Part shown: one piece after another, positions 4,180-29,876 of the stretch
How the letters are laid out: each line of letters begins with the position of its first letter
Position numbering within the stretch: the first letter of the stretch is position 1
Assembly: GCF_037991315.1 (NCBI RefSeq)
Contig: NZ_CP150300.1
Span: 5,642,001-5,706,000 of the forward strand
DNA: 64,000 bases
Reading direction: 5' to 3'
Source of the DNA: Paenibacillus sp. FSL H8-0079
GTDB lineage: Bacteria; Bacillota; Bacilli; Paenibacillales; Paenibacillaceae
Position numbers and translations under genes: made by a program
Notes under the pieces: generated by a model
What the model saw: the letters and a program-made list of their open reading frames with translations, nothing else
Database searches by the model: none
What the model was told of the DNA's origin: nothing

Positions 4180-4941
4180 TTAACTTTGATAATCCACTGT
4201 GACACCGCTCTGCTCGTACAAGGCAGCCGTCTCTTCATCCAGACGACTGTCACTGATGATGTAGTCCAGTTCCGAACACTGAGCAAAAGTTCGCAGTGCA
4301 AATTGTCCGAATTTATAATGATCCACAACGCCGTATACCTGCTGCGAGGCGGATATCATTGCTTTTTTCAAAGGAACCAGATCTCCCGTGTAGATCGATA
4401 GCCCAAATTCCGGATGAAGGGCTGTCGTGGATATAAAGGCTTTATGAATGTTAAGACTGGATATAAACGCAGCCGTGTCATCCCCAACCAACATATTCCG
4501 TACACGAGCCCCGCCAGGCACAACCAGCCGCACCTGCTCCTTCTTGGTTAGCTCCGCAATGATGAATAGATCATTAGTGACTACCGTAATAGGCTGATTG
4601 TCGAGACGTTTGGCCATCTCCAGCGTGGTGCTGCCACCATCGAGAGCAACGATATCTCCAGGTCGAATGTAAGCAAGGGCACGTTCAGCAATCTCCGTCT
4701 TCTCTGGATGGTGCTTCTCTGTAACTCCACGGCTATTCAAGATGCCATACTGGTCATTCTGAGCCAGCATAGCTCCTCCATGGACACGTACGAGCAGCCC
4801 CATGCTCTCCAACTTGTCGAGATCCTCTCGTACAGTCTTCCCCGTCACCTGCAACAGCTCACTTAGATCACTGACGGTTACTTCCTGGCGCTCCAGCAGA
4901 GCCTCCATAATCTTTTCATGTCTTTTCAATGGATTCATCAT
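4180..4941 (-). CDS. DeoR-family transcriptional regulator
   Basis: About 253 residues with an N-terminal DeoR winged helix (residues 5-58; the helix-turn-helix is around 20-40, VSDLSELLQVTGKTVREDLDKL) and a C-terminal sugar-phosphate sensing domain with the DGGSTTLEMAKRL and VTNDLFIIAEL motifs of the DeoR/IolR group. The ATG at 4941 follows AGGAAG by 6 bases; ATG 4938 and TTG 4947 are alternatives. Its position between kduI and kduD suggests that it controls this cluster, probably as a repressor released by a sugar phosphate or KDG-type effector. The likely operator is the triple GTTCAT repeat upstream of kduI. Confidence 0.85.
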   Translation of the reverse strand: MMNPLKRHEKIMEALLERQEVTVSDLSELLQVTGKTVREDLDKLESMGLLVRVHGGAMLAQNDQYGILNSRGVTEKHHPEKTEIAERALAYIRPGDIVALDGGSTTLEMAKRLDNQPITVVTNDLFIIAELTKKEQVRLVVPGGARVRNMLVGDDTAAFISSLNIHKAFISTTALHPEFGLSIYTGDLVPLKKAMISASQQVYGVVDHYKFGQFALRTFAQCSELDYIISDSRLDEETAALYEQSGVTVDYQS

Positions 4942-5001
4942 AATCAACTTCCTATACTACCTGAGTTAAATGAGTAACAGTTTCACACGTACACTTCGGG
5001 T

Positions 5002-12493: not shown

Positions 12494-14875
12494 TCATGAT
12501 GACACGCGGATCGTCTGTCCTGCGGTCATGGTTAAAATAATTACATAATCGCCCTGAGGCGTAAGCTCTGCCTTGGCTTGTTCATTTCCTTCTACACGCA
12601 GCGGATGAGCACTGCGAATGGTCAGCGAGTCACTTCGGTCTGCTTTGATGACCGCTGACGCAAGCTTGTTGTCCGCCCATGTTATGCCCACTGTATAGCC
12701 ACCTCTTGCACGAAGCCCTTCCACACGTCCTTGAGTCCAGAGGTCAGGCAATGCCGGAAGTAAATGTAACTCGTTCAAGTGACTCTGCAACAACATCTCG
12801 GCCATACCAGCCGTGCCTCCAAAGTTACCATCGATCTGGAACGGCGGATGATCGTCAAACAGATTCGGATGTGTGGATCGGGCCAGCAACGTACGCACAA
12901 ACTGATGTGCCTGGCTGCTATCCAACAGTCGTGCATACAGGTTGATCAACCATGCACAGCTCCATCCTGTATGCCCTCCCCCTTGTGAAATACGACGTTC
13001 AAGCGATACCCTTGCAGCTTCCACAAGTTCCGGTGTGTGCACTCGATTGATCTGCTCTCCCGGATACAGTCCATACAGATGGGAGACGTGACGATGCCCT
13101 GGCTCGGATTCGGCAAAATCCTTAAACCACTCCAGCAATTGTCCTTCGCTCCCAATTCGGAATGGATAGAGTTTGCCCAGAGCCTCACTCCAATCGCTTG
13201 CCAACGACTCATCTATATTTAGTTGCTTCGAGGCCTCAATACAGCGGCTGAACAGTTCACGAATCAAGCTCATATCCATCGTTGAAGCCATGGATATACT
13301 GCGTGCCTCTCCAGTTTCCGTAAGGAACTTGTTCTCGGGTGATGTGGATGGGATCGTCACCAGATAACCTTCCGGTCCTTCCACCAGCCAGTCGAGACAG
13401 AAGAGTGCAGCCTCTTTCATGATCGGATAGGCACGTTCCTCAAGAAAACGCTGATCCCCGGTAAATTGGTAATGCTCCCATAGATGCGAGGTCAGCCACA
13501 CGCCACCCATCGGCCAGAAAGCCCAGCTTGCATCACCGCCTGTCGGTGTCGAGGTTCTCCAGATATCCACGTTATGATGGGCAGTCCATCCACGAGCTCC
13601 ATACAGAATCCGCGCTGTTCGGCGTCCTGTATCACTGAGATCCGTCAGCATATCAAACAATGGCTCATGACATTCACTGAGATTGCACACTTCTGCCGGC
13701 CAGTAGTTCATTTCGGTGTTGATGTTGATCGTGTAATCACTGTGCCATGGCGGCTCCACCTGATGGTTCCAGATTCCCTGCAGATTGGCAGGCTGGCTTC
13801 CAGGGCGCGAACTCGCCATTAACAGATATCTTCCATATTGAAAATAAAGTGCCTCCAGCCCAGGGTCTTGATCCCCTGCCTGATAGGCCTGAAGCCGCTC
13901 ATCCGTAGGCAATTCGGCGTTAGCCGATACACCGAGATCAATAGAGACTCTGTTAAACAAAGCGTTATGATCTTCTACATGTCGTTCACGAAGGGCTTCC
14001 GTACCATGTGCGATTGCTTTAGAGATCGTATCCCTGCATTCCTTTTCCAGCACCAGGTTGTCCTTCACAGGCAACACATCGTAACTTTCAAAAGACGTAG
14101 CCGCCGCCAGATGGAAAACAACCTGATCAGCACCCTGAATATGCAGCTTGCCTTCCAGATTGGTGACCTTGGCCTGCTCGCCTGTTGCCGTAACTGCCAC
14201 ACGCACAGCATAAGCGGTTCCCCGATCCTCCTCATAGATGACGGATTCCGGGTGATCCCTGAAGTAATTGGACTCCACATGACTTGGGCACCGACTGAAC
14301 ATGGTGAGTGCATCTCCCGAAGTCTGAAGCTGATAAGGATGGGGACTGTCTAGCGTAATACTTACATTCACAGCACCCTTCCGATCAGCAGTCAATGTGC
14401 AGACCATCAGATCATCCGAAGCGCTGGCATATACTTCACGTACATAACGAGTTTCTTCCCATGAGTACGTCGTGGTGGCAATACCTGATTCCAGATCAAG
14501 CTCACGCTCAAATGAATCATACGAAAGATCATCCAGACCCTCATGGTTTAATAGGAAGTGACCCATCGGCTGATAGGCCTCCACATCACGACCTAGCATT
14601 TCACGGTTCAATAAATCCTCGGCTTCGCCATACTGCCCAGCCATAATCAACTCACGTGTCTGTTTTAAATACCGCTGACTACTGTATTGAATCGTATCCC
14701 GAGGAAATCCTGACCATAATGTATCTTCATTGAGCTGAATTCGTTCATCTGCTGCGCCACCGTACACCATGCCTCCAAGACGGCCGTTTCCGATGGGCAA
14801 TGCTTCTTCCCAGCGTTTTGCCGGTTGTCGATACCATAGACGATTGATTTTAGTTTGGTTATTGTGTTGGGACAT
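12494..14875 (-). CDS. GH95 alpha-L-fucosidase-like glycoside hydrolase
   Basis: 793 residues without a signal peptide. The N-terminal domain begins with [28 protein letters not shown], the hallmark of family GH95, followed by an (alpha/alpha)6 barrel. The catalytic region shows [13 protein letters not shown] (384-394; Asn pair assisting the general base) and STSPEN with Glu514 as the probable acid. GH95 enzymes invert and usually remove alpha-1,2-linked L-fucose; some members act on L-galactose. Start ATG 14875 has AGGAGC upstream. It is followed by the GH1 gene and preceded by an SBP terminator plus the locus operator, so it has its own promoter. Which deoxyhexose it prefers cannot be decided here. 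Confidence 0.9.
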
Positions 14876-14918: not shown

Positions 14919-14944
14919 ATAAAACGTTTTCGGTAAGTGCTTAC
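14919..14944. promoter_or_regulatory. Locus operator copy 1 (CGAAAACGTTTTAT) plus GTAAGTGCTTAC dyad
   Basis: ATAAAACGTTTTCG (14919-14932) is one of four exact copies of this 14-mer in the locus. The adjoining palindrome GTAAG-TG-CTTAC (14933-14944) recurs in a related form at 16960-16971. Both lie within 70 bases of the GH95 start. The core is cre-like (LacI/CcpA family). Confidence 0.65.
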
Positions 14945-15003
14945 AATAAGAAAATTATATGTGATTTCAAAATTTGCGTCAATGCAAATCATCACAACAT
15001 CCA

Positions 15004-15033
15004 CAAAAAAAAGGCCCCATATAGGGCCTTTCC
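15004..15033 (-). terminator. Terminator of solute-binding protein gene 1
   Basis: AAAGGCCC/GGGCCTTT with a short loop, followed by eight Ts on the minus strand. Confidence 0.9.
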
Positions 15034-15064
15034 TTGTGTAACCATGGATTGCAGACAATCTATA

Positions 15065-16762
15065 TTATTTTACGTCTTTTCCTGTCCACAGAGAGACACG
15101 TTCCTTAACCCAAACCGTAAATTGTTTCTCCATTTCAACTGCACCCGCTTTGTCCAAATCAGCCAGTAAAGCATCATAGGTTGCATCAAAGTTTGCTGGT
15201 GTAGTCAGAACAGCTTCCGGAATCCGTTTGCGGATGATATCCTGCGTTTTCTGGAAAGTTACTTCATAGTCTGTACCGGAAGGTACGGACATGTTATACG
15301 CTGCGCCCCAATCCTTAACTGGCAGATCTTCTTCAGCCGGATAGAACTCTTTCCATGTCGTAATCCCGTAAGCTTTCAGTGTTTCTTTCTCAGCAGCTGT
15401 GTAACCAGCTACAATCTGCTCAGGGAAGTTCGTTGTGTAGTAGTTATCGGTAGAATCTTTCACACCGTCACCGTATCTTGCACTAAATACATTATACATT
15501 CCAATTCCTGTTTCCTTGCTGAAATTGGAGTTGTCATTTGTTTTTCGATCTTGAACTTCATCTGGGATAACGCGTTGACCATCTTCTACGTTGTAGTGTT
15601 CGCCTTCAAGACCCCAGTTTCTCAATACCTGGCCTTCATCGGAAGCAAGCCAATCCATGAATTTAATGATACGCACTGGATCTTTGGCAGAAGTTGTGAT
15701 CCCGATGCCATAACCGTCAAATCCGGCTGGTTGGAACGTGTGATCCACAATTTCATCGTTAAGTGATACAGAGAAGTGAGCATATGTGGCGTCATCTTTG
15801 CCCGATGATTTAAGTGCGTTCTCCGCTTCTTGATAATTCCACTCTTGGTCAATCAGACCGAGGACACGGCCACTTGCAATTTTAGACTTATATTGGTCAT
15901 CCTTTTGAACAAATGCATCTTTGTCCAACAGGCCTTCATTGTACATTTTGTTCAACCAACGGAAATATTCTCTTTCCTCTGGACGTTTGTAGTGTAGTTT
16001 TGCTTCATACGTTTCAGGGTCAATGTAATATTCACCATCATCCGGTGCACCTGTTGCCTGGAAAGCTGGATTCGTTACCGTAATCATGATCTTCCAGTCA
16101 TCTGCATTCAATGTCAATGGAATGGTTGGCTGACCATCAATCGTTGGATGTTTTTCATAATAAGCTCTGAGTACGTTCTCGTAATCCTCAAGTGTCTTCA
16201 CTTCAGGGTACCCAAGCTCTTTCAATACTCTTTGCTGAATTTCAAATCCACCTGTAGCGTCAAACGTAACATTATCGACACCCATATTGGTTGGAATGGT
16301 ATATATCGCTTGATCTTCAAGACTGTATTTCAAACGGTTCATCTGTTCTCCATAGATTTTTTTCAGATTGGGAGCATGCTCCTCAATCAGATCCGTGAGA
16401 TCCAGCATCGCGCCTGCATCCACAAGCTTAGATAAGTTACCTTTAGGGTAGATCATATCAGGAAAGTCACCACTGGCAGCCATAAGCGCAATCTTCTGGT
16501 TACCACCATCGTTTACATCATACTCTGCTTCAATGGTAACGCCTGTTTGCTCCGTAATCTTTTTACCAACAGCATCTTGCATCTTGTTCCAGGTTGGACT
16601 AGCATCCGCCCCGAAGAATGTAACTGTGACCGGTTCGGTTCCGCTGGACTCCGAAGTCTCTTTGGTTCCCGAATTCCCACAGCCAGCTGTGACCAACATT
16701 GCACTTGCGAGCATCAACATTGCAAACGTCTTGGGTGTATTACCTTTCATTTTGCCTCTCAT
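15065..16762 (-). CDS. Extracellular sugar-binding lipoprotein, paralogue 1
   Basis: 565 residues: a signal peptide with lipobox LVTAGC (lipidated Cys28) and a large type-1 solute-binding domain of the LplA/YtcQ class used for oligosaccharides in Paenibacillus. It captures saccharide outside the membrane and hands it to permeases of the 21047-22948 type. It is very similar along its whole length to the next two genes, for example MLDLTDLIEEHAPNLKKIYG and ITVTNPAFQATGAPDDGEYY. The start at 16762 has GGGGGA upstream; ATG 16750 is an alternative. It is a single-gene unit with its own promoter and terminator, downstream of two locus operators. It has no dedicated permease. Confidence 0.92.
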   Translation of the reverse strand: MRGKMKGNTPKTFAMLMLASAMLVTAGCGNSGTKETSESSGTEPVTVTFFGADASPTWNKMQDAVGKKITEQTGVTIEAEYDVNDGGNQKIALMAASGDFPDMIYPKGNLSKLVDAGAMLDLTDLIEEHAPNLKKIYGEQMNRLKYSLEDQAIYTIPTNMGVDNVTFDATGGFEIQQRVLKELGYPEVKTLEDYENVLRAYYEKHPTIDGQPTIPLTLNADDWKIMITVTNPAFQATGAPDDGEYYIDPETYEAKLHYKRPEEREYFRWLNKMYNEGLLDKDAFVQKDDQYKSKIASGRVLGLIDQEWNYQEAENALKSSGKDDATYAHFSVSLNDEIVDHTFQPAGFDGYGIGITTSAKDPVRIIKFMDWLASDEGQVLRNWGLEGEHYNVEDGQRVIPDEVQDRKTNDNSNFSKETGIGMYNVFSARYGDGVKDSTDNYYTTNFPEQIVAGYTAAEKETLKAYGITTWKEFYPAEEDLPVKDWGAAYNMSVPSGTDYEVTFQKTQDIIRKRIPEAVLTTPANFDATYDALLADLDKAGAVEMEKQFTVWVKERVSLWTGKDVK

Positions 16763-16799
16763 TGTCTAGTTCCCCCTATTATTTATGAAGGTTTTATCT

Positions 16800-16819
16800 G
16801 TATAACAGGCTTATGCCTG
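16800..16819 (-). promoter_or_regulatory. Conserved promoter element of SBP gene 1
   Basis: GTATAACAGGCT (16800-16811) is shared exactly with 18823-18834, at 38 and 40 bases before the two SBP starts. Read on the minus strand it gives TGTTATACA, an extended -10 element, preceded by a CAGGC/GCCTG dyad. Confidence 0.55.
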
Positions 16820-16922
16820 AGGATACCACTTTTTTGAATGCGCTTTCGATACAGTCCATTATGGCTTTTTGTAAAGCTAGCGTCTCCATCGGTTTAAGCG
16901 ATAAAACATTCTGCTAACAAGC

Positions 16923-16971
16923 ATAAAACGTTTTCGCAATAACTATAAAACGCTTACTGAAAGTGCTTACA
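16923..16971. promoter_or_regulatory. Locus operator copy 2 and a variant copy
   Basis: ATAAAACGTTTTCG (16923-16936) is an exact copy of the locus 14-mer. A variant, ATAAAACGCTTACT, follows at 16945-16958, with AAGTGCTTACA at 16961-16971. The cluster is 160-210 bases upstream of SBP gene 1. Confidence 0.65.
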
Positions 16972-17010
16972 TGATAGATTATATGCTATCCACCACCCTA
17001 CGTCAACAAC

Positions 17011-17040
17011 AAAAAAAGCCCTTTCTCAAGGGCTTTTTTT
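17011..17040. terminator. Terminator of solute-binding protein gene 2
   Basis: AAAAAAAGCCCTT tctc AAGGGCTTTTTTT is symmetric and can work in both directions; the adjacent gene is on the minus strand. Confidence 0.93.
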
Positions 17041-17079
17041 GAAATGAAAACCATTGGCTTTTATGCCTTGTTTTCAATC

Positions 17080-18783
17080 TTATTTCACATCTTTTCCAGT
17101 CCACAGCGCAACACGTTCTTTGATCCAAACCGTATATTGTTTCTCCATTTCAACTGCACCCGCTTTATCGAGTTCAGCCAGGAGACTGTCATATACGCTG
17201 TCGAAGTTCTCAGGTTTGGCAAGGATGGCTTCCGGAATCCGTTTACGGATGATATCCTGCGTTTTCTGGAACGTTACGTTGTAATCCGTGTCGGAAGGTA
17301 CAGGCATGTTATATGCTGCGCCCCAGTCTTTCAGTTTCAGTTCATCTTCAGAAGGATAGAAATCTTTCCAAGTTGTAATACCATATGCTTTCAACGTTTC
17401 CTTCTCTGCTGGTGTGTAACTTGCTTGGATCTGTTCAGGGAAGTTCGTTGTGTAGAAGTTGTCTGTAGCATCTTTTACCCCATCACCGTATCTTGCGCTG
17501 AATATGTTGTACAATCCAACTCCCGTTTCTTTGGTGAAGTTCGAGTTGTCATTCGTTTTGCGCTCCTGAACCTCGTCAGGAATGATACGTTTGCCATCTT
17601 CTACGTTGTAGTGTTCGCCTTCAACACCCCAGTTTCTCAATACTTGACCTTCATCGGAAGCGAGCCAATCCATAAATTTGATGATACGAACCGGATCTTT
17701 GGCTGACGTTGTGATCCCGATACCATAACCATCAAATCCGGTTGGTTGGAACGTATGATCCACAATGTCCTTGTTCAGGGACACGGAGAAGTGAGCATAT
17801 GTGGCGTCATCTTTGCCCGCTGCTTTGAGAGCATTTTCAGCTTCACCATAGTTCCAGTCCTGGTCAATCAGACCGAGTACACGACCACTTGCAATTTTGG
17901 ATTTGTATTGATCATCTTTTTGAACAAAAGTATCTTTGTCGAGCAGTCCTTCATTATACATTTTGTTCAACCAACGGAAATACTCTTTTTCCTCAGGACG
18001 TTTGTAGTGAAGCATTGCTTCATACGTTTCAGGGTTAATGTAATATTCACCATCATCCGGTCCACCTGTTGCCTGGAAGGCAGGGTTCGTTACCGTGATC
18101 ATGATCTTCCAGTCATCTGCATTCAATGTCAGCGGAATGGTTGGTTGACCATCGATTGTTGGATGTTTTTCATAATACGTTCTAAGAACGTTCTCGTAAT
18201 CCTCAAGTGTTTTCACTTCAGGATATCCCAGCTCTTTCAAGACTCTTTGCTGGATTTCGAAACCGCCACCTGCATCAAATGCAACGTTATCTACACCCAT
18301 ATTCGTTGGAATAGCATAGATCGCCTGATCATCCAGACTGTATTTCAAACGATTCATCTGCTCACCATAGATTTTTTTCAGGTTTGGTGCATGTTCTTCA
18401 ATCAGGTCAGTCAGGTCCAGCATTGCGCCTGCATCCACTAGCTTCGACAAGTTACCTTTAGGAAAGATAATATCAGGGTAATCACCGCTGGCAGCCATTA
18501 AAGGAATCTTTTGGTCGCCACCATTATTCACATCATACTCTGCTTCAATTGTAACACCTGTTTGTTTGGTGATCTCTTGGCCCACTGCATCTTTCATGTT
18601 ATTCCAGCTTGGACTTGCATCTGCACCAAAGAATGTAAAGGTTACCGGGGTGGTCGTATCTCCAGAATCAACCGGCTTTTCTGAAGCGGTAGTTCCTCCT
18701 CCACTGCCGCTGCATCCTGCTGTAATTGCAAGAGCACTGGCTAACAGAAGCATTGCGAATGTTTTTGGTGTTTTGCCCTTCAT
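17080..18783 (-). CDS. Extracellular sugar-binding lipoprotein, paralogue 2
   Basis: 567 residues with lipobox ITAGC (Cys24) and the same LplA-class binding domain as its neighbours. It resembles paralogue 1 much more closely than paralogue 3: long stretches such as the PEERxYFRWLNKMYNEGLLDKD region and the C-terminal KERVALWTGKDVK are nearly identical, so these two probably arose by a recent duplication. Differences cluster in the linker after the lipobox and at scattered binding-domain sites. AAGGGGG lies before ATG 18783. It is flanked by its own promoter motif and terminator. The ligand is inferred to be an oligosaccharide processed by the GH95, GH2 and GH1 enzymes. Confidence 0.92.
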   Translation of the reverse strand: MKGKTPKTFAMLLLASALAITAGCSGSGGGTTASEKPVDSGDTTTPVTFTFFGADASPSWNNMKDAVGQEITKQTGVTIEAEYDVNNGGDQKIPLMAASGDYPDIIFPKGNLSKLVDAGAMLDLTDLIEEHAPNLKKIYGEQMNRLKYSLDDQAIYAIPTNMGVDNVAFDAGGGFEIQQRVLKELGYPEVKTLEDYENVLRTYYEKHPTIDGQPTIPLTLNADDWKIMITVTNPAFQATGGPDDGEYYINPETYEAMLHYKRPEEKEYFRWLNKMYNEGLLDKDTFVQKDDQYKSKIASGRVLGLIDQDWNYGEAENALKAAGKDDATYAHFSVSLNKDIVDHTFQPTGFDGYGIGITTSAKDPVRIIKFMDWLASDEGQVLRNWGVEGEHYNVEDGKRIIPDEVQERKTNDNSNFTKETGVGLYNIFSARYGDGVKDATDNFYTTNFPEQIQASYTPAEKETLKAYGITTWKDFYPSEDELKLKDWGAAYNMPVPSDTDYNVTFQKTQDIIRKRIPEAILAKPENFDSVYDSLLAELDKAGAVEMEKQYTVWIKERVALWTGKDVK

Positions 18784-18822
18784 GTGTAATCCCCCTTATG
18801 GATATAATGAAGCTGTATATTT

Positions 18823-18840
18823 GTATAACAGGCTGACCTG
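18823..18840 (-). promoter_or_regulatory. Conserved promoter element of SBP gene 2
   Basis: GTATAACAGGCT followed by GACCTG gives the same TGTTATACA plus CAGG/CCTG arrangement as the SBP gene 1 promoter, 40 bases before the start. A cre-like AAAAGCGCTTTCTT follows at 18894-18907. Confidence 0.55.
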
Positions 18841-19082
18841 CACATACCGTGACCAGATGAAACGAATGTAACATTTTTGTTTATCTAACATTAAAAGCGC
18901 TTTCTTAATGACAGTGAATGGATCTTCCAACACTTTAGTTCACTCGTCAACCTCTCAGTTGCCTTTGAACAAATCGGACAGGTTGTATGTCGTTTCCCCT
19001 GATGTACAAGTAAATGTAAGTGCTTTCATAATTGAATAATAATCGCTCCCATAGTCCTTGTCAATAGCGAATATACAAAATT

Positions 19083-19108
19083 GAAAACGTTTTTTGGAAA
19101 ACGTTTTA
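19083..19108. promoter_or_regulatory. Tandem pair of locus operator half-matches
   Basis: GAAAACGTTTT (19083-19093) and GAAAACGTTTTA (19097-19108) repeat with centres 14 bases apart, some 300 bases upstream of SBP gene 2 and just beyond the SBP gene 3 terminator. Confidence 0.6.
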
Positions 19109-19116
19109 GATATATA

Positions 19117-19143
19117 AAAGAACCCGGTTTCCCGGGTTCTTTC
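19117..19143 (-). terminator. Terminator of solute-binding protein gene 3
   Basis: AAGAACCCGG ttt CCCGGGTTCTT with a TTTTAT tail on the minus strand, 30 bases after the stop. Confidence 0.9.
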
Positions 19144-19170
19144 TCCGTTTGAATCTGACCAAACACCTGC

Positions 19171-20859
19171 TTATTTAGCTTCTTCGCCGCTCCACAATTG
19201 AACACGGTTTTGGACAAGCTCAGTGTATTGTTTTTCCATATCCTCTGCTCCTGCTTGGTTCACTTCTGCAATCATGCCGTCATAGATGGCATCGAACTGT
19301 TCAGGAGTACTCAGAATGGCTTCCGGTATACGTTTCCGGATGATATCCTGTGTTTTCTTGAAGATGACGTTGTAGTTAGAGTCACCTGGTGTTGGCAGAT
19401 TGTATGCTGCTCCCCATGGTTTGATTGGGAACTCATCTTCACTTGGGAACAGGTCTTTCCACGTAGTAGCACCGTATGCTTTGAGTGTTTCTTTCTCTGC
19501 ATCGGAATATGCTGCTACGATCTGTTCAGGGAAATTCGTAGTGTAGTAGTTATCCGTTGAATCCTTCACACCGTCTCCATAGTGACCGGACATATTGGTG
19601 TACAGTCCGATACCCGTTTCTTTCTGGAATACGGCTGCATTATTGGTTTTCTGGTCCTGAATGTCGGCAGGAATCACACGTTTGCCGTCCTTCACTTCAT
19701 ACTGTTTTCCTTCAATTCCCCAGTTCATCAGCACTTGCCCTTCTTCAGAAGCCAGGTAATCGAAGAATTTAATCGTACGAACCGGATCAGGATTCGTTGT
19801 CGTAATCCCTACACCCCAACCGGATACAAAACCAGGATCTTGGAAGGAATGATCCTTGATATCCTCTGACAGGGTTACCGGGAAGTGTGAATACGTTGCT
19901 TCCGTCTTGCCTGCGGATTTCAATGCATTTTCTGCATCGGAATATCCCCAATCCTGGTCAATGACACCCAGAACACGTCCACTTGCAATTTTGGATTTGT
20001 ATTGGTCTGTTTTTTGGATGAAGCTGTCCTGATCAAGCAATCCAGTGTTATACATATGGTTCAACCAGCGGAAGTACTCTTTTTCCTCTGGACGTTTGTA
20101 ATGCAGACTTGCTTCATACGTCTCTGGATCGATGTAGTATTCACCGTCATCCGGTGCACCTGTTGCTTGGAAGGCAGGGTTCGTTACGGTAATCATGATT
20201 CTCCAATCATCCGCGTCCAGTGTTAACGGGATGGTTGGCTGACCATCAATCGTTGGGTGTTTCTCTTTGTACGCCTTCAATACATTCTCGTAATCCTGAA
20301 GTGTACGTACTTCCGGGTATCCGAGTTCTTTCAGTACACGGTGCTGAATACCAAATCCGCCACCTGCATCAAAGTACTTTTGGTCTACCGCATAATACGT
20401 TGGTAAGACATAAATAGCCTGATCTTCATTACTGTATTTCAACCGGTCCATGTAATTACCATACAGCTTCTTCAGATTGGGAGCATATTGGTCGATCAGA
20501 TCTGTCAGATCGAGCATTGCCCCGGCATCCACCAGTTTGCTAAGTTCTCCTTTGGGTGACACGATATCCGGATAGTCTCCGCTCGCTGCCATTAAGGATA
20601 TTTTATCTTGACCACCACTAACGGCAAATTCACCGTTAAGGGTTATCCCTGTTTTTTCTGTAAGGACTTTGCCGATTTCATCCTTCATGCCATTCCAGTT
20701 CGGACTGGGATCGACACTAAAGAAATCGAACGTAAGTGGAGTTGTCTCTGCGCTTGTATCCTTAAAGGACGTATCACCGCCACTTCCTCCACCGCAACCT
20801 GCGAGCAAAGACATCGCAAGCACTGGAGCCAGTGCAATCTTCATTTTGGAACTTGCCAT
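19171..20859 (-). CDS. Extracellular sugar-binding lipoprotein, paralogue 3
   Basis: 562 residues with signal peptide and lipobox LLAGC (Cys22). It has the same LplA-class fold as paralogues 1 and 2 but is the most divergent, for instance DQYAPNLKKLYGNYMDRLKYSNEDQAIYVLPTYYAVDQ near 145-185 and a shifted C-terminus (LVQNRVQLWSGEEAK). It is the copy nearest the permeases (about 190 bases behind them, with only an RNA hairpin between), so it is probably the original partner of the transporter. GGGAGG lies before ATG 20859. The ligand is not determinable by eye. Confidence 0.92.
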   Translation of the reverse strand: MASSKMKIALAPVLAMSLLAGCGGGSGGDTSFKDTSAETTPLTFDFFSVDPSPNWNGMKDEIGKVLTEKTGITLNGEFAVSGGQDKISLMAASGDYPDIVSPKGELSKLVDAGAMLDLTDLIDQYAPNLKKLYGNYMDRLKYSNEDQAIYVLPTYYAVDQKYFDAGGGFGIQHRVLKELGYPEVRTLQDYENVLKAYKEKHPTIDGQPTIPLTLDADDWRIMITVTNPAFQATGAPDDGEYYIDPETYEASLHYKRPEEKEYFRWLNHMYNTGLLDQDSFIQKTDQYKSKIASGRVLGVIDQDWGYSDAENALKSAGKTEATYSHFPVTLSEDIKDHSFQDPGFVSGWGVGITTTNPDPVRTIKFFDYLASEEGQVLMNWGIEGKQYEVKDGKRVIPADIQDQKTNNAAVFQKETGIGLYTNMSGHYGDGVKDSTDNYYTTNFPEQIVAAYSDAEKETLKAYGATTWKDLFPSEDEFPIKPWGAAYNLPTPGDSNYNVIFKKTQDIIRKRIPEAILSTPEQFDAIYDGMIAEVNQAGAEDMEKQYTELVQNRVQLWSGEEAK

Positions 20860-20955
20860 AATGGTAATCCTCCCTGTTTCATATGTCTGTTTTGTCCGGG
20901 ACTTTTTTGTCCCTGTCTATAGCCTCATGAATACCACGCCGCAGCCCTATACGGT

Positions 20956-20982
20956 GAAGCGCAGACCACATGGCTGCGCTTC
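20956..20982. other. Intercistronic hairpin between permease and SBP gene 3
   Basis: GAAGCGCAG and CTGCGCTTC form a perfect 9-bp stem with a 9-base loop. On the minus strand no T-run follows, so it is not a terminator. Hairpins in this position often stabilise or process the mRNA so that binding protein and permease are made in unequal amounts. A second small dyad, GGGAC/GTCCC, is at 20898-20913. Confidence 0.55.
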
Positions 20983-21046
20983 GGGTATCCTGATGCTTCA
21001 TTTGTAGATGTACGGCCGCTCTATGTGGCAGCCTGTACCCACTTGT

Positions 21047-21949
21047 TTAACCTTTTACTGCGCCCAATGTCATACCGCCAACAAAGTACTTTTGAAGGAA
21101 TGGATATACAATGAGGATTGGAACCGTTACAACGATCGTAATCGCCATTTTGATCGATTCCGGTGAAATCTGTGTCATTTGCTGCGCCATATCATTCGCA
21201 TTTCGTCCAGCACCTGAGCCTTGCTGCGTACTTTGCAATACTTTCATCAGCTCATATTGGAGCGTGGTCAAATGTGCCTTTGAACCATTATACAGGTACG
21301 TATCGAACCATGCATTCCATTGACCTACAGCCAGGAACAATGCGATGGTAGCAAGCACTGGTTTACACAGTGGCAAGATGATTCTGTAATAGATTGTAAA
21401 GTCATTCGCTCCGTCCAGCTTCGCGGATTCCTGCAATGAGTATGGCAGGCCATCAATGAATGAACGGATGATGAATACGTTAAATGCACTGATCATACCA
21501 GGCAATACATATACCCAGAATGTACCGATCAGGTTCAAGTCACGCATCAGAATGTACACCGGAATCAGACCACCGGAGAAATACATCGTGAGCGCGAGCG
21601 TTGTGGAAACAAATTTTCTAAGTCCAAAATCAGGTCTGCTCAGTGTAAAGGCGATCATAGAGGAGCTGATCAATCCAAGCACGGTACCTACAAGTGTACG
21701 CAGAATGGAGATCTGCAAACCTTGTAGCAATCCATCATATTGGAAAATCGTTTTGTAGTTCTGTAATGTGAATTCGCGAGGCCACAAGTAAATTCCGCCA
21801 CGTACTGTATCTGTCGAGTTATTGAGTGAGATAGCTAGTACGTTAAGGAATGGATAAAGTGTTACAACCAGCACCATGGTCATCGCGAGGATGTTGAATA
21901 TATCGAACAGTTTATCGCCCCGAGTAGCATTGAATGCTTTGTTCGCCAT
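21047..21949 (-). CDS. Carbohydrate ABC transporter permease (LplC/YtcP type)
   Basis: 300 residues with six predicted membrane helices. It is the MalG-like subunit: MVLVVTLYPFLNVLAISLNN in helix 1, the EAA loop ESAKLDGANDFTIYYRIILPLCKP (about 185-210) that docks the ATPase, and the conserved tail QKYFVGGMTLGAVKG. It imports oligosaccharide together with the partner permease 15 bases upstream. No ATPase gene is in the locus; such systems usually share a general MsmX-like ATPase encoded elsewhere. Confidence 0.93.
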   Translation of the reverse strand: MANKAFNATRGDKLFDIFNILAMTMVLVVTLYPFLNVLAISLNNSTDTVRGGIYLWPREFTLQNYKTIFQYDGLLQGLQISILRTLVGTVLGLISSSMIAFTLSRPDFGLRKFVSTTLALTMYFSGGLIPVYILMRDLNLIGTFWVYVLPGMISAFNVFIIRSFIDGLPYSLQESAKLDGANDFTIYYRIILPLCKPVLATIALFLAVGQWNAWFDTYLYNGSKAHLTTLQYELMKVLQSTQQGSGAGRNANDMAQQMTQISPESIKMAITIVVTVPILIVYPFLQKYFVGGMTLGAVKG

Positions 21950-21964
21950 AATGTCGTCCCCTCC

Positions 21965-22948
21965 CTACATGATGCTTTCTTTTGTGAATTTTTTGAACAA
22001 GCCGTTCGCAGTAAACAAGAGGATGATACTGACAACGGAGTTGAATATACCTATGGCTGTACCATATGAGAATCGTCCCATATTCAAACCATAATTGAGC
22101 GCGTATAGATCAAGTACTTCCGAGTAGTCTGTGACCAGACTGTTGCCAAGCAAGAACTGCTTCTCGAAACCGATACTGATCAGATGCCCAATCGACATGA
22201 TGAAAAGTACAGAAATCGTGGTCCGTATGCCAGGCAGCGTAATATGCCACATCTGTCTCCAGCGGTTAGCTCCATCTACACGGGAAGCTTCATACAGCTC
22301 ATTGTCGATACCTGTAATCGCCGCCAGATAGATGATGGCATTCCAACCGGTTTCTTTCCACATATCTGAAGCGGTTACAATGTACCAGAACAAGTTACCC
22401 TTGGCCATGAATTGGATCGGTTGATCAATAATGTTCAGTCCTACCAAGAGATCGTTGATAATCCCTCCATCGGTGGAGAGCATCTTCGTAATGATCCCGG
22501 CTACAACGACCCAGGATACAAAGTGAGGCAGATATGATACCGTTTGCACGGCACGCTTGAAGAACATGCCTTTCATTTCATTTAAGAGAATAGCGAAGAA
22601 AATCGGCACGATAAAACCAACAACTAGTCCCATCAAGCTCATTGCAAGCGTATTCCGAAGTACCAGATAGAAACGATCATCACTGAACAGCTCTACAAAG
22701 TGTTTAAAGCCAACCCACTCTTGATCACCAAATGATCTGGCAGGTTTATAGTTTTGGAAAGCCATCGTCCATCCCCATAGTGGCAGATAGTTAAATACGA
22801 AAACCCAAGCTACGAATGGCAATGACATGAGATAGAGATATTTCTGCTGCTTCATTCTGTCCCAAATTCCGTTCCGCCGATTCTTTAAAGGCGGTTTGGG
22901 GTCACTGCTTCTGTTCGCGGAAGCGGATTTTTTTGTTAGCGTTTCCAT
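21965..22948 (-). CDS. Carbohydrate ABC transporter permease (LplB/YtcO type)
   Basis: 327 residues. A cytosolic N-terminus (about 45 residues) precedes six helices, with YLYLMSLPFVAWVFVFNYLPLWGWTMAFQNY as helix 1, typical of LplB, and an EAA loop EASRVDGANRWRQMWHITLPGIR (about 240-262). It forms the heterodimeric channel with the following gene. The ATG at 22948 is preceded by AGGGGGAACGG. The gap to 23155 contains a locus operator, so this two-permease unit has its own promoter, separate from the GH2 gene. Confidence 0.93.
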   Translation of the reverse strand: METLTKKSASANRSSDPKPPLKNRRNGIWDRMKQQKYLYLMSLPFVAWVFVFNYLPLWGWTMAFQNYKPARSFGDQEWVGFKHFVELFSDDRFYLVLRNTLAMSLMGLVVGFIVPIFFAILLNEMKGMFFKRAVQTVSYLPHFVSWVVVAGIITKMLSTDGGIINDLLVGLNIIDQPIQFMAKGNLFWYIVTASDMWKETGWNAIIYLAAITGIDNELYEASRVDGANRWRQMWHITLPGIRTTISVLFIMSIGHLISIGFEKQFLLGNSLVTDYSEVLDLYALNYGLNMGRFSYGTAIGIFNSVVSIILLFTANGLFKKFTKESIM

Positions 22949-23154
22949 CTCCGTTCCCCCTCCTCTGTTTTATAAAATAATCATACTCGATAGAGCGTTT
23001 TCAAAATACCATCTGGATTTTAGAGAAAATCATATAAAAATTAGATATAGACATATATAATCAGACATTAATTAGTTAAAATCAGTGATAATTCATACTT
23101 CACACTGCAATAAAAGTAATATAAAGGTAAATATCTATCTTAAATGGTAAATAT

Positions 23155-23170
23155 CGAAAACGTTTTATAG
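23155..23170. promoter_or_regulatory. Locus operator copy 3
   Basis: CGAAAACGTTTTAT (23155-23168) is an exact copy of the locus 14-mer, followed by TAATCGTTTACTTCAACG. It lies about 210 bases upstream of the permease start; AGAGCGTTTTCAAA at 22992-23005 is a nearer weak variant. Confidence 0.65.
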
Positions 23171-23198
23171 TAATCGTTTACTTCAACGAAACAGCATG

Positions 23199-23222
23199 CA
23201 AAAAGGACCCTTTCAGGTCCTT
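23199..23222 (-). terminator. Terminator of the GH2 gene
   Basis: AAGGACC/GGTCCTT with a TTTTTG tail on the minus strand, a few bases after the stop. Confidence 0.85.
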
Positions 23223-23227
23223 GTGAA

Positions 23228-26137
23228 TTACAATGTAAATTGAATCGTTTGCAGTTTAGCGATCCCGAGCAGTTGCGCAACAGATATGGAGGTTGCCGGT
23301 TGAAAGTGGTCTCCATGCAGATATGAAAGGATCTCCTGAAATAAGTAGGCGACTTCTGGACGCTTCATTAAAGACAGGTTAGTAAAAGGAAGTGTGGATA
23401 CCAATATCCTGCCCTTTCCTACTTTTGCTTCAAAGGCATAAGCAAGTCGTTTGGCCCGATGGAAATGGTCCACTACTTCAATCAGCGGCTCTACCCCGTG
23501 CAATGTATCCAAACATATCGCTGGTGTACCGTTCACCAGGTGATACCAATGCCAGTCTGATGCCCCATCATGCGGGAAGGAGCCCAATAGTGGTACCTGA
23601 TCCCTCAAAACCATACCCATCGTTGCACCAGGCTGTGTAGCGAACATGAGGTAATTCCAGAATACAGGCAGGTACTTGGTATCCACTGAATCATATAGCG
23701 CTTCTGAAGTTGGCTGTAACCACACACTCCCCCCGTTGACCACATAATCAACGACATTGGGTGTTAACGATTGAACGATAACCAAGTCAATCTCCCGATT
23801 TTTCAACAAACGAAATCCATCGATGTGATCTACGCAATCATCATGCGCTTCACCCAGGAATGGCTGCAACTCTGCTACGGTATTCCAAATACGCTTCGAA
23901 CCCGGATGGGATTGATAAAAAGGAAAAGACCAGCCATGCCATACATTGGCTACATGTCTCTCCGAATCGCCTGACCGTAACTCTGCCTCGATCCGAAAAG
24001 CTGCTGCTGCTTCACGAGGTGCAGTAGTGACGATGCTTCCCAATGACATGACGGACCCACATTGGATATCTCCGGTTTTCCATTCTCCTTCGGTAAGTAT
24101 CACATCATCGCTAATCAACTTCCACAGTATGGATGTGCCCTCAAGCGGATCTTTCCCATAGTGAGAGATGCGTACATCGACATGAATAGGTTCTCCGGCG
24201 TAGAATGTACGCTCCTTACAGCTTAACAACAGGACCATATCCGCATTGAAACGCATGAATTCTTCAGGTGTTGTAATGCCTTTGTCGTCCCAGAATACGT
24301 CCAGAATGCCTGTCGTAGCATGTCCCTGACCCGGAAAATCGCGGATGTCCAGCAGCTGTACGCCCGCAGCGTCCGGTGTTCGTCGAATCCGCTCCATGGC
24401 TTCTTTTAAGGAACGCACCAGATGTATACCGCTGGCCTGTTGAAAATGCTCCAGGTCCGCCATCATTCCTTTGTTAGACAACGATTCTTCGATCGGTCCT
24501 AACCAACTGGGGCGCAGAACGCCAGTATACTTGGCTCGCTCTTGGGGCCGCACATACATGGTGAACTGTGCATGTTCGTGTCCAATAACAGGTTGCTCTG
24601 CAAGCCGGGTGACTGCATGATAATCCAGCGTGGTATCCGGTACAGCTGATATAGTGGACTCCAGTGGGGGATGCCAGTTCAACGACTGAATATAATAATC
24701 TGCTTCCCGCCCTTGCGCCGGAAGCTGTCCAAAACCTGTATTGTCCGTATATAACCGAGTCGGGTCCATATCCCTTGCCCTCGATACCAAGGCATTGAGT
24801 TCAGGATGGCCATTCGGACCAATCAGTTCATTCCCCATGGAGAACATGACGAATGAAGGATGTCTGTGCAGTGACTGGAGCAACCCGTCCAGTTCTTGTG
24901 TCAGATAGGACAACACTTCCGCTGGCGCAGGATGATCAGGTTGCTCAAAGAAACGAGACCAATGTGGAAGTTCTGCTTGCACCAGCATGCCCTCTTCATC
25001 AGCTGCGTCCCAGAATGGTTCTGGTGCACTCCACCCATGCAGACGGACATGGTTGAATCCGTATGATCTGGCGACTCGAAACTGTTGAAGATAATGCTCC
25101 TTATCCCAGACGGGATAACCCGTCAGTGGAAAGATACAGCAATCAACGTACCCGCGAAGATACACCGGCGTTCCATTCAATTCAAGCTGCTTCCCATTTG
25201 TTGCAAAGGAACGAACACCAAATGATTGCTTCTGCTGGTCTAGTTCCTGTTCACCGTCATGCAGACGGACAACTGCTCTGTATAATTCAGGGGATTCATC
25301 CGACCATCTTGCGATAGACATCTCTGGCCCTAGTTCCAATCGCCACTGGTCTATTACTGCGTTGTTCCTAGCTGGAACTACTGAATTTATATCAACATGC
25401 GCAGGACCACTCAGCTCCACATGACAACTGTAACGATCAAGCCATGTGCCATCCGGATGCTGGATATCCACATGCAATTGCATGGCTTTAGCCAATCCAT
25501 TCGCGGGAGCGCTTACAGTACAATCAACCAGAATGGCTCCATTTTCAGCATCTGGTTGAATGCGTAACGTCTGTACTCGGCATGGGGGCAGAATGTCCAG
25601 ATAAACACCACCCGTGATTCCACCCCAGGCTGTGGCTGTATGCAATGAATGAATATGGCTGCCAGCCAGCGGAAGTTTCATCGTATTATCCACGCGGATC
25701 TCTATCCGATTAACTTCTCCCTGCTTCACCAGAGAGGTAACTTCCCACTGCTGTTGATTCACCAGACTATCTTGCTGTCCGGCATACTGCCCATTGATCC
25801 AAAGATTTGTGGTCCAGCGGACCCCTTCCAATCTGAATACATACTGGCAGTCAGAATCGTCTGATGGAACATGAATATCCTGAGCATACCAGGCTGAGCC
25901 TTCATACTCACGTACCTTGGTCCAGGTATCTAGTCTTTCGTATTCAGGCTCATCTCCATATCCTTGCTCTTCCCATGAACCGGAAATCTGAATGGCTTCC
26001 CAGACTGTGTCCTCACGTAGTGAAGGCAGAACTATCTTTTGTTCAACGAGTTTGTCAGACTCCAGTTCCAAACGAAACTGCCATGTTCCATTTAAGTTCA
26101 ATGTATGACGTACAGCACCTATATCAGACAAATTCAT
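23228..26137 (-). CDS. GH2 glycoside hydrolase (beta-galactosidase/glucuronidase type)
   Basis: 969 residues without signal peptide. The N-terminal GH2 sugar-binding domain (about 10-185, ending WGGITGGVYLDI) is followed by an immunoglobulin-like domain and the TIM barrel (from about 310, NGTPVYLRGY). Glu437 in MFSMGNEL is the acid/base and Glu521 in VIGHEHAQF the likely nucleophile. A long C-terminal region has a glutamine amidotransferase-like or carbohydrate-binding look (NREIDLVIVQSLTPNVVDYVVNGGSVWLQP). The start MNLSDIG at 26137 is chosen for the GAAGGGATGG site; ATG 26158 lacks one. Exact specificity within GH2 (galactoside, glucuronide, mannoside) is uncertain. Confidence 0.88.
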   Translation of the reverse strand: MNLSDIGAVRHTLNLNGTWQFRLELESDKLVEQKIVLPSLREDTVWEAIQISGSWEEQGYGDEPEYERLDTWTKVREYEGSAWYAQDIHVPSDDSDCQYVFRLEGVRWTTNLWINGQYAGQQDSLVNQQQWEVTSLVKQGEVNRIEIRVDNTMKLPLAGSHIHSLHTATAWGGITGGVYLDILPPCRVQTLRIQPDAENGAILVDCTVSAPANGLAKAMQLHVDIQHPDGTWLDRYSCHVELSGPAHVDINSVVPARNNAVIDQWRLELGPEMSIARWSDESPELYRAVVRLHDGEQELDQQKQSFGVRSFATNGKQLELNGTPVYLRGYVDCCIFPLTGYPVWDKEHYLQQFRVARSYGFNHVRLHGWSAPEPFWDAADEEGMLVQAELPHWSRFFEQPDHPAPAEVLSYLTQELDGLLQSLHRHPSFVMFSMGNELIGPNGHPELNALVSRARDMDPTRLYTDNTGFGQLPAQGREADYYIQSLNWHPPLESTISAVPDTTLDYHAVTRLAEQPVIGHEHAQFTMYVRPQERAKYTGVLRPSWLGPIEESLSNKGMMADLEHFQQASGIHLVRSLKEAMERIRRTPDAAGVQLLDIRDFPGQGHATTGILDVFWDDKGITTPEEFMRFNADMVLLLSCKERTFYAGEPIHVDVRISHYGKDPLEGTSILWKLISDDVILTEGEWKTGDIQCGSVMSLGSIVTTAPREAAAAFRIEAELRSGDSERHVANVWHGWSFPFYQSHPGSKRIWNTVAELQPFLGEAHDDCVDHIDGFRLLKNREIDLVIVQSLTPNVVDYVVNGGSVWLQPTSEALYDSVDTKYLPVFWNYLMFATQPGATMGMVLRDQVPLLGSFPHDGASDWHWYHLVNGTPAICLDTLHGVEPLIEVVDHFHRAKRLAYAFEAKVGKGRILVSTLPFTNLSLMKRPEVAYLFQEILSYLHGDHFQPATSISVAQLLGIAKLQTIQFTL

Positions 26138-26264
26138 ATCGTATAGCCATCCCTTCATCTGGAATCTTGTAAATCCAGTCTAAGATGTGAAGCATTCCGT
26201 GACCATTGCTTATCATGGGAAGTGCATGGACAATATGATGAATCTGGAGTATGTCCAGAAAATC

Positions 26265-26280
26265 CGAAAACGTTTTATAC
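26265..26280. promoter_or_regulatory. Locus operator copy 4
   Basis: CGAAAACGTTTTATAC carries the exact locus 14-mer at 26265-26278, 128 bases before the GH2 start and directly after the regulator gene. Confidence 0.65.
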
Positions 26281-26312: not shown

Positions 26313-27911
26313 TTATTCTTCGTTTATATCAGTAGCCGAGTCTTTGGCAAGGGATTGTGTTCTTGCTTGTTTGTAAGCGGACGGGGATTCCCCTACATAC
26401 TTCTTGAACTTACCGTGGAAATAGTCCACGTTCGCATATCCCACTCTCGCCGCGACCTGATGGACCTTCAGTCCTTCATCCAACAATTCCTTGGCTTTCT
26501 CCATACGCACCTTGTCCAGAAATACATTGAAGTACTCTCCTGTATGATTCTTGAACAACTTGCCGAGGTAACTGCTGTTATAGTTAAACACTTCTGCCAG
26601 TACTTCGAGCTTGAGATTTTCACCAGGATTACGCTGGATAAATTCAATCATCTGTTTCAGTACAGTATCCTTGCTGCCTCCACCCATACGTTGAATAAGT
26701 CGATTCAAGTGTTCAGCCGTCATGACTTTGAGATCAGGCATCGTGAATTGGTGATAGACTTCGTTAATCAGAACCGAATGTTCTTGCATAATGGAGTGCA
26801 TATGTTGATTCGTCGCTGCGAGCTTGTTGATTGCCAGGGAAAATACCTGTGAGAACGCCGTCTTAATGGCTTGCTCTGTACGATGATATGGAACCAGACG
26901 CTCTTCCATCTCACCTAGTACTCGCATGACTGATTCACTACTACGGATGTCCAAGGCATAATACAGCTTGTCCGCGAGTTCTTCCTCATCTGGTTCATGC
27001 GTTCCATCTACAGCTTCGACTCTTGGCTCACTAACGTCTTCGCTTTCGCTACCTTCATTCCATAGAATAATGCGCTGCTCCGTGAACAAAAATCGTTCCC
27101 CAAGTGTGCGATTGGCCTGCGTGTATGACCGCGCAATCTCAGCCGTGGAATGTACTGGTTCTCCTGCAGCACCATACATGTGAATATCCCATTCTCCCAG
27201 TAGCCCTTCCAGCTCAACATATAGATTCCTTGCAGATGACTCGGATGTGATCGTTTCCTTACTTAACAGACCCAGACCAGAATGGAATGAGAATACGATG
27301 CCTCGATCTTTCTGGTCAAAAGCTTCAATCAGTTTGCGTTTCATAACACTGCCCCGTTGCAGATCTGGCGCCGAATGTATCTCAAGCAGCACAATCTGAT
27401 AGTGAGGCCAGTGCAGACCCAAGCTATCATCTTCCATGCTGCCTGCACCCTCCAGACTATCAAAGAGCAAAGCCTCAATCTGATGCTCCCTATAGGCGGT
27501 ATCCTCACCTGCATGACGTGCCAGCGTCTCCCGTTCACGGGTCAGGATCGTAGCAATACGCTCCAGCTCACCAATAATCTCTTCCTCATCCACAGGTTTG
27601 AGCAGATAACCATCCACACCGAAACTGATGGCTTTTTTGGCATAATCAAAATCCGCATATCCGCTCAATATCAAAAAGTGCGAATCCGGATGATTCCGGC
27701 GCACTTCTTCAATAACATCCAGCCCGGTCATCCCGGGCATACGAATATCAATAATCGTCAGATCAGGCTCCAATTCCTCAAACCGGGAGATGGCCTCACG
27801 CCCGCTGGCAGCTGTAGCGATAACCTGAAATCCGTATTTTTCCCACTCGATAATGGTGGTCAGTCCCTCACGTATGCTCGGTTCGTCATCCACCAAAAAT
27901 ACTTTATACAT
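26313..27911 (-). CDS. Response regulator, AraC-type (YesN family)
   Basis: 532 residues. An N-terminal receiver domain (1-125; phospho-acceptor Asp55 in TIIDIRMPG, Lys at LLKP near 105) is joined through a long linker to a C-terminal AraC/XylS DNA-binding domain with two helix-turn-helix motifs (about 425-525, AARVGYANVDYFHGKFKKYVGESPSAYK). It should activate the transporter and hydrolase genes when phosphorylated by the kinase. ATG 27911 follows GGAGGGG and overlaps the kinase stop by eight bases, so translation is coupled; an upstream ATG at 27986 is inside the kinase gene. Confidence 0.93.
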   Translation of the reverse strand: MYKVFLVDDEPSIREGLTTIIEWEKYGFQVIATAASGREAISRFEELEPDLTIIDIRMPGMTGLDVIEEVRRNHPDSHFLILSGYADFDYAKKAISFGVDGYLLKPVDEEEIIGELERIATILTRERETLARHAGEDTAYREHQIEALLFDSLEGAGSMEDDSLGLHWPHYQIVLLEIHSAPDLQRGSVMKRKLIEAFDQKDRGIVFSFHSGLGLLSKETITSESSARNLYVELEGLLGEWDIHMYGAAGEPVHSTAEIARSYTQANRTLGERFLFTEQRIILWNEGSESEDVSEPRVEAVDGTHEPDEEELADKLYYALDIRSSESVMRVLGEMEERLVPYHRTEQAIKTAFSQVFSLAINKLAATNQHMHSIMQEHSVLINEVYHQFTMPDLKVMTAEHLNRLIQRMGGGSKDTVLKQMIEFIQRNPGENLKLEVLAEVFNYNSSYLGKLFKNHTGEYFNVFLDKVRMEKAKELLDEGLKVHQVAARVGYANVDYFHGKFKKYVGESPSAYKQARTQSLAKDSATDINEE

Positions 27912-29694: not shown

Positions 29695-29876
29695 GTCTGC
29701 ACCTTCCGTCGTCTGTATAAGCGCTTACATATAAAGAGCAGGATCAGGATGCCCTGTCCTTTTAATTCATCATACCACATAACCGCGAAAATTCGGATTG
29801 TCATCTAACCTCTAACAGAAGAGGCCGCCATTAACATGGCGACCGGGCTTACCGAATTATTTCTGCTGACAGAAGT

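Follow-up and report, generated by a model that had tools for sequence, protein, structure and literature searches.

The window analysed here, a stretch of 64,000 nucleotides from Paenibacillus sp. FSL H8-0079 (contig NZ_CP150300.1, positions 5,642,001 to 5,706,000), contains a glycan locus whose genes all lie on the minus strand and encode three glycosidases (families GH1, GH95, and GH2), two solute-binding proteins (SBP_A and SBP_B), two ATP-binding cassette (ABC) permeases (PermB and PermC), an AraC-type response regulator with its histidine kinase, and a 562-amino-acid protein that, judged from the position of its gene, is probably a third binding protein. The GH95 gene presumably specifies an activity of the alpha-L-fucosidase/galactosidase family. 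A 14-mer, CGAAAACGTTTTAT, recurs in the gaps between these genes, and it is the subject of this report: the set of sites is real, conserved, and specific, and most likely serves as operator for a LacI-type repressor whose gene lies elsewhere in the genome.

A first reading of the window, made from its letters alone (the sequence-only reading), had reported four exact copies of CGAAAACGTTTTAT in these gaps, and all four are present, two on each strand (copies 1 to 4 in Table 1), with no further copy in the window. The complete genome (G000), a single contig of 6,708,762 bp, holds no others; a simple composition model predicts 0.076 for it, and shuffled versions of the window yielded no match. 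The random scatter over the genome that the same reading had considered is not seen, the exact 14-mer being confined to this locus within 6.7 Mb. Three one-mismatch copies lie outside the locus (at 3019084, 3102656, and 5535141), and a by-eye reading of 3-kb stretches there found no LacI gene near them. The core of the motif, AAAACGTTTT, occurs 16 times in the genome and six times in the window, and all six window cores fall in gaps, which account for 1,544 of the 18,579 bases (8.3%) of the gene cluster; as is typical of LacI operators, they stand before genes of one sugar pathway. Each has the central CG around which the motif had been described as palindromic, forming an even-length semi-palindrome. 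Most of the ten cores elsewhere, nine of which were read, are in or near unrelated genes, and two of them are palindromes of the LacI-family gene L021. As for the near-copies reported earlier, the tandem pair assigned to 19083-19108 is real, with members at 19082-19095 and 19096-19109; the one assigned to 18894-18907 has 8 or 9 mismatches to the 14-mer and is rejected, and that stretch is overlapped by GAAAGCGCTTTTAA (18891-18904), which resembles a catabolite-responsive element (cre).

To assess conservation, contigs were scanned with the 562-amino-acid protein, which found 298 relatives; the best 80 matches were kept and correspond to 69 loci, hence, with the window, to 70 related loci. That the same gaps in relatives might lack the motif, as had been allowed for, is not the general case: many contain it, and the exact 13-mer CGAAAACGTTTTA is found in at least one gap in 40 of the 70 loci and in no gap of the other 30. 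The loci were grouped after the sites had been seen, such that the groups are descriptive and constitute no test. CGAAAACGTTTTA is present in 28 of the 28 loci of group A (the window, L030 to L051, L060, and L067 to L070). Group B has 12 loci, 10 of them with regulator and kinase, the exceptions (L062 and L065) being binding-protein clusters without a permease found within reach that come from the same strains as L055 and L053. Across 143 group-A gap sites, AAAACGTTTT is nearly invariant and its flanks vary, noting that sites were admitted only with a CG center and at most two mismatches, which favors the apparent invariance of the core. The gap between SBP_A and GH95 keeps CGAAAACGTTTTA, at the position of copy 1, in 19 of 19 aligned sequences, and in some relatives about 80 extra bases separate it from the cre-like site. 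The motif is thus retained even where its flanks and spacing differ, so that binding of a protein to it is probable. In this gap, 2 of 175 14-base windows are as well conserved or better; in the other three gaps, which hold other conserved elements, 44 of 140, 55 of 265, and 62 of 303 windows are as good.

The arrangement of the sites bears on what such a protein might do (Table 1). In front of both GH95 and SBP_A, the 14-mer lies downstream of a near-consensus predicted promoter, in each case behind cre-like TGTAAGCACTTWC. Copy 1 occupies about +16 to +29 from the predicted GH95 transcription start, and the promoter concerned, itself predicted by eye, is conserved in the alignment of the gap between SBP_A and GH95. 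The placement of these copies downstream of promoters and beside cre-like sites suggests repression at the locus, copies 1 and 2 being arranged as a road-block repressor would use them. The tandem pair, one or both members of which are present in many relatives, precedes a predicted SBP_B promoter (TTGACA at 19059-19064, TATTAT at 19036-19041), and copy 3 adjoins cre-like GTAAACGATTAC (23170-23181). The promoter of PermB combines a weak -35 box, GGTATT, located after the TCTAATTTTTATATGATTTTCTCTAAAATC element, with a -10 box, TATGAT, at 22980-22985; the weaker motif relative in its spacer, TGAAAACGCTCTAT, is identical in 8 group-A representatives and is not found as such in the other 15.

Table 1. 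Genes, predicted promoters, and candidate binding sites of the glycan locus (window coordinates)
Feature	Position	Strand	Remarks
GH1 beta-glucosidase	11116..12477	-	TIGR03356 over cut-off
GH95 glycosidase	12494..14875	-	Alpha-L-fucosidase/galactosidase family
Putative operator copy 1	14919..14932	-	CGAAAACGTTTTAT on gene strand, 43 bp before GH95 start codon
Cre-like TGTAAGCACTTAC abutting copy 1	14933..14945	-	Conserved in relatives' alignment
Predicted GH95 sigma-A promoter	14954..14982	-	TTGACG 14977-14982, 17-bp spacer, TATAAT 14954-14959
Solute-binding protein SBP_A	15065..16762	-	
Putative operator copy 2	16923..16936	-	160 bp before SBP_A start; about +36 to +49 from predicted transcription start
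Cre-like TGTAAGCACTTTCA and partial copy AGTAAGCGTTTTAT	16945..16971	-	TGTAAGCACTTTCA 16958-16971; AGTAAGCGTTTTAT 16945-16958
Predicted SBP_A sigma-A promoter (by eye)	16978..17006	-	TTGACG 17001-17006, 17-bp spacer, TATAAT 16978-16983
Solute-binding protein SBP_B	17080..18783	-	
Tandem near-copies	19082..19109	.	AAAACGTTTT cores; upstream of predicted SBP_B promoter
562-amino-acid protein	19171..20859	-	No Pfam or NCBIfam match
ABC permeases	21047..22948	-	PermC 21047-21949, PermB 21965-22948
TGAAAACGCTCTAT, weaker motif relative	22990..23003	-	Inside PermB promoter spacer
Probable response-regulator element before PermB	23005..23045	-	TCTAATTTTTATATGATTTTCTCTAAAATC, CTAA repeats 21 bp apart
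Putative operator copy 3	23155..23168	+	Inverted relative to genes, 206 bp before PermB
GH2 glycosidase	23228..26158	-	Nearest NCBIfam model exo-beta-1,4-galactosidase, below cut-off
Putative operator copy 4	26265..26278	+	Inverted relative to genes, 106 bp before GH2
Two-component system	26313..29694	-	AraC-type response regulator 26313-27986; histidine kinase 27904-29694
Cre-type TGTAAGCGCTTATA	29716..29729	-	Before histidine kinase gene

Other elements of these gaps were recorded alongside. The cre-like elements at 14933-14945, 16958-16971, and 19015-19028 share TG(T/A)AAGCACTT(A/T)C, are centered on CA and not on CG, and each lie just downstream of a predicted -10 box; they are possibly a second dedicated operator. 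GTTTTAT occurs three times at 22-bp spacing between SBP_B and SBP_A (16901-16958), and the gap between the response regulator and GH2 includes a conserved block (26203-26240; ATAT.GTCCATG..CTTCC....ATAAGCAATGG) without an Rfam match; an Rfam scan of positions 9000 to 31000 returned nothing at gathering score. The neighbors of the locus are cytochrome oxidase, KduI/IolB-type, and DeoR-type genes on one side and OsmC-like and ABC transporter genes on the other, and the cluster contains no GH31 alpha-xylosidase.

Of the two regulators proposed in the sequence-only reading, a dedicated LacI-type protein or a CcpA of shifted specificity, the first is the better supported and the second the less likely. 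The sites are locus specific, have a central CG, and include the PurR half-site CGAAAACG, and on these grounds we favor, with a probability of roughly 0.6, a dedicated LacI-family repressor that is encoded at another place in the genome and uses the 14-mer as its operator. In a survey of the LacI family, palindromes of even length, usually centered on CG, belong to 1251 of 1303 regulators (PMC4052901). Such a repressor would silence the import and glycosidase genes until an inducer derived from an oligosaccharide appears; CcpA would act additionally, through the separate cre-like sites, and the local two-component system would activate the permeases. Protein binding to the 14-mer, its LacI type, repression, and an inducer of the beta-glucan or xyloglucan type are four steps that we infer. 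No LacI gene is located in the window, as had been stated, although the genome has 22 PF00356 matches (21 over the cut-off). Similarly, a search of the 69 related loci, up to 10 kb on each side, with the LacI proteins of this genome (E value of 1e-15) recovered no LacI gene, its matches being receiver domains hit by L029, a response regulator with a sub-cut-off PF00356 match.

To single out a candidate, the 21 LacI genes of this genome were compared with those of three motif bearers, G043 (18 genes), G005 (14), and G021 (11), and of two genomes that have the permease gene but no motif around it, G015 (15 of its 21 genes) and G019 (15 of 16). In each of the three motif bearers, L009, L011 (CcpA), L013, L020, L025, and L026 have a reciprocal best hit at more than 50% identity. 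Of these, L013 and L026 have no reciprocal partner in G015 (among the 15 genes compared) or G019, and L009 and L025 each lack one in one of these two; a search of 59 genomes separately shows that L013 is absent from G015. In that search, 45 of the 59 members of the genus have L013 at no less than 79% identity, and the locus of every one of these 45 carries the motif (shown for 26 by exact 14-mers on the PermB contig, at most 8.1 kb from that gene, for 18 by fetched loci, and for G059, in which PermB is split, separately). The other 14 members possess PermB (75 to 82%) and have no motif copy with up to one mismatch in the stretch around it (up to 10 kb on each side), noting that the stretch from G004 measures only 11 kb (contig end) and that G046 shows fewer locus genes. 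The L013 gene (G000:C1:2040282-2041286) is unlinked to the locus; in this genome it comes after a protoglobin-type gene and prkA and before a gene for a GH10 xylanase, and in G056 it precedes a two-component system with a binding protein, so that sugar genes are not absent from its surroundings. The 330 bp upstream of L013 in this genome and in G043 contain no match to the motif better than 5 mismatches. We regard L013 as the leading candidate repressor, tentatively and with the odds still against it.

The remaining LacI genes fared as follows. L008, L009, L019, L020, L021, and L022 were set aside for other palindromes nearby, judged by eye, and L014 for having no ortholog in G005, which carries the exact motif at its locus. 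Across the genomes compared, L026 is distributed in the way that L013 is, but it flanks ABC transporter genes of its own, and its apparent absence from G015 derives from 15 of 21 genes. L021 adjoins an ABC permease gene and has palindrome TATAAAAACGTTTTTATA before it and AATAAAAACGTTTTTATA after it (G000:C1:3046358 and 3047480; L141), which would form a separate local regulon; the L019 gene sits between two TCGAAACGTTTCGA palindromes (L139, G000:C1:6090000-6103000).

Several observations weigh against a LacI-type operator read by L013 or a similar protein. The motif is missing from 30 of the 70 related loci. It is asymmetric, with CG on one side and TA on the other, and the bases flanking the AAAACGTTTT core are likewise asymmetric in the group site counts (CG center required), LacI operators in print being mostly conserved inverted repeats (PMC4052901). 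More than 75% of the sites in the survey are 30 to 140 bp before the start codon (PMC4052901), a range that the distances found here partly exceed (the exact copies stand at 43, 106, 160, and 206 bp, the members of the tandem pair at 298 and 312 bp). No promoter was identified upstream of copy 3, copy 4, or the tandem pair; these sites would need looping or a different role, and because of these differing positions repression is something we infer. Homologs of L013 whose recognition helix is identical occur in G017 and G037 (65% identity, next to prkA) and in G014 (59%, elsewhere), and these three genomes have neither the motif at the locus nor any genome-wide match to CGAAAACGTTTWN{0,1}A, which speaks against L013. 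Finally, in a midpoint-rooted permease tree of 40 loci (G046 dropped for gaps), the motif bearers are not one clade, with G021 and L053/L054 placed elsewhere; nevertheless, L013 and the motif occur together along a few clades, which amounts to few independent events.

The main rival explanation, which we consider unlikely, takes the 14-mer for a cre box, weak or adapted to this locus, to which CcpA binds together with HPr-Ser-P. CcpA was present in all six genomes whose LacI genes were read, and published sites come close to the motif, including the Bacillus subtilis weak cre consensus TGAAARCGYTTTCW and the acoR site TGAAAGCGCTTTAT (PMC3463425), the group A Streptococcus CcpA-bound sites GAGAAAACGTTTTAGT and GTGAAAACGTTTTAAA (PMC8359418), and the cre preferred by Clostridium difficile CcpA, RRGAAAANGTTTTCWW (PMC3510511). 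Weak cre boxes of B. subtilis are degenerate (PMC3463425), and it is the resemblance of these boxes and of the streptococcal sites to the 14-mer that leaves CcpA a share of the probability. Against this, position 1 is C in 76% of group-A and 97% of group-B sites, where cre has T. The earlier remark that the flanks differ from the cre consensus is accurate for positions 1 and 13 of the exact copies, whereas G2 fits. The canonical cre pattern TGWAANCGNTWWCA matches 47 times in this genome, at 37 distinct sites (6 matches for the reversed control), and none of them includes AAAACGTTTT; a cre would be expected to be spread over many catabolic genes, and the exact 14-mer occurs at this locus only. 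G015 and G019 have CcpA proteins 94 to 95% identical to that of this genome as well as the permease gene, yet no motif around it. Overall, a shifted CcpA is less likely because canonical cre sites form a separate set in this genome and 14 relatives that keep the permease gene have no motif around it. Cre-like sites distinct from the motif also lie beside it.

A regulator from some other family (e.g., ROK, GntR, or DeoR) with the same phyletic pattern is an improbable reader of the motif: the candidate screen covered LacI-family genes only, no LacI candidate fits perfectly, and a DeoR-type gene is situated about 6 kb past GH1, at window positions 4180-4947, but the central CG and the PurR-like half-site point to LacI. 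Least probable of all is binding by the local AraC-type response regulator, which is encoded within the locus and is at least 50% identical to the window's in those motif-bearing loci that have one (mostly lower in others), but whose DNA-binding domain, including both recognition helices, is nearly the same in motif-free loci such as L340 and L349, making it a poor candidate for the 14-mer, which is in addition oddly placed for an activator, downstream of two predicted promoters. The CTAA-repeat element before PermB is present in loci with and without the 14-mer (its string TCTAATT in 21 of 23 chosen representatives, motif-free loci included, and not in L341 or L091); given also the near-identical DNA-binding domain, the regulator more likely reads the TCTAATTTTTATATGATTTTCTCTAAAATC element, which is its likely target.

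If a LacI-type repressor does act at the locus, its regulon may be wider. A looser pattern, CGAAAACGTTTWN{0,1}A, matches five times in this genome (reversed control, two), four times at the locus and once at 2403075, just before an esterase gene that is followed by a GDSL esterase, an SMP-30 lactonase, a gap, and a GH74-type gene (GH74 being our own reading of a BNR/Sortilin-type protein with cellulose-binding domains). The variant CGAAAACGTTTAA is found about 2.9 to 3.5 kb upstream of the GH74 match in at least six genomes, this one included. Of the off-locus matches, eleven were inspected in L013-carrying genomes (this one included). Carbohydrate genes follow or lie close to seven of them: the esterase-GH74 cluster, GH74-type genes in G056 and G021, GH42 and GH3 (about 700 bp) in G021, GH5 in G010, at the predicted start of the gene, and GH81 in G011. 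Of the other four, two precede an alcohol dehydrogenase gene (G001 and G056), one falls within a G005 gene, and one lies between unrelated genes (G024), so that the proposed restriction of the motif to sugar loci is valid for exact copies in this genome but not for all matches in relatives. Three off-locus places in genomes that lack an L013 of at least 79% identity (G038, G084, and G094) are not at sugar genes. That GH74 genes themselves are preceded by the motif failed as a proposition, the stretches scanned at 30 GH74 loci containing the exact 13-mer in 1 case and a two-mismatch copy in 10.

At the alcohol dehydrogenase-type genes of G056 (L371) and G001 (L369), the match that precedes the gene is CGAAAACGTTTAA. 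At G000:C1:936684 (L373), AGAAAACGTTTTAG lies shortly before a GH94 gene, downstream of TATAAT, as either a further target or a chance match; it was not counted as regulon evidence because it comes from the list of ten off-locus AAAACGTTTT cores, mostly in or near unrelated genes.

The GH1 and GH2 assignments and some of the off-locus sites suggest decorated beta-glucan oligosaccharides, e.g., of xyloglucan, as the putative substrate of the locus, although the absence of a GH31 alpha-xylosidase from the cluster does not favor this. A fuller scenario, which we hold to be doubtful, is that L013, unlinked and non-autoregulated, was recruited to act as master repressor over a plant beta-glucan regulon comprising the import locus, the esterase-GH74 cluster, and, in relatives, GH42, GH3, GH5, and GH81 genes, with one asymmetric operator and layered on the two-component activator and CcpA. 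The LacI-type reading bears on what keeps a glycan locus of Paenibacillus silent when it has a two-component system of its own, and, given a conserved operator set and a candidate for the repressor, the possible beta-glucan regulon can be tested directly.

Compared with known systems, the E. coli PurR operator differs in being symmetric and in having targets that are not known to be sugar genes. Both contain the half-site CGAAAACG, which is seen in the PurR-DNA complex (1PNR) with the PurR site acGaAAACGTTTtCgt (PMC4655474); this structure is also the literature match to the string CGAAAACGTTTT, and published matches to AAAACGTTTT with the term "operator" include CcpA sites as well as the PurR site. 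The portions of the literature searched, PMC4867992 included, contain no report of the present operator. With CcpA/cre, the 14-mer shares the central CG, AA at the same half-site positions, and, for two copies, a location downstream of the promoter, but it has C and not T at position 1 and A and not C at position 13, and its exact form is limited to one locus. The xyloglucan oligosaccharide locus of Ruminiclostridium cellulolyticum likewise combines an ABC importer, cytoplasmic glycosidases, and an AraC-type two-component system, whereas its cluster enzymes are GH31, GH3, and GH42, and a LacI-type operator is not mentioned in the part of that paper drawn on here (PMC4780118). What we describe is a new regulon of a familiar kind: like the local LacI sugar regulons in RegPrecise, it has an even semi-palindrome with a central CG in several promoters of one sugar pathway (PMC4052901), but its site is markedly asymmetric and its presumed regulator gene is not beside the targets. 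Nearly 90% of LacI-family regulators in the survey are local and 72% are autoregulated (PMC4052901), and the present system would, if our reading is true, be a LacI protein that serves a distant locus rather than its own neighbors.

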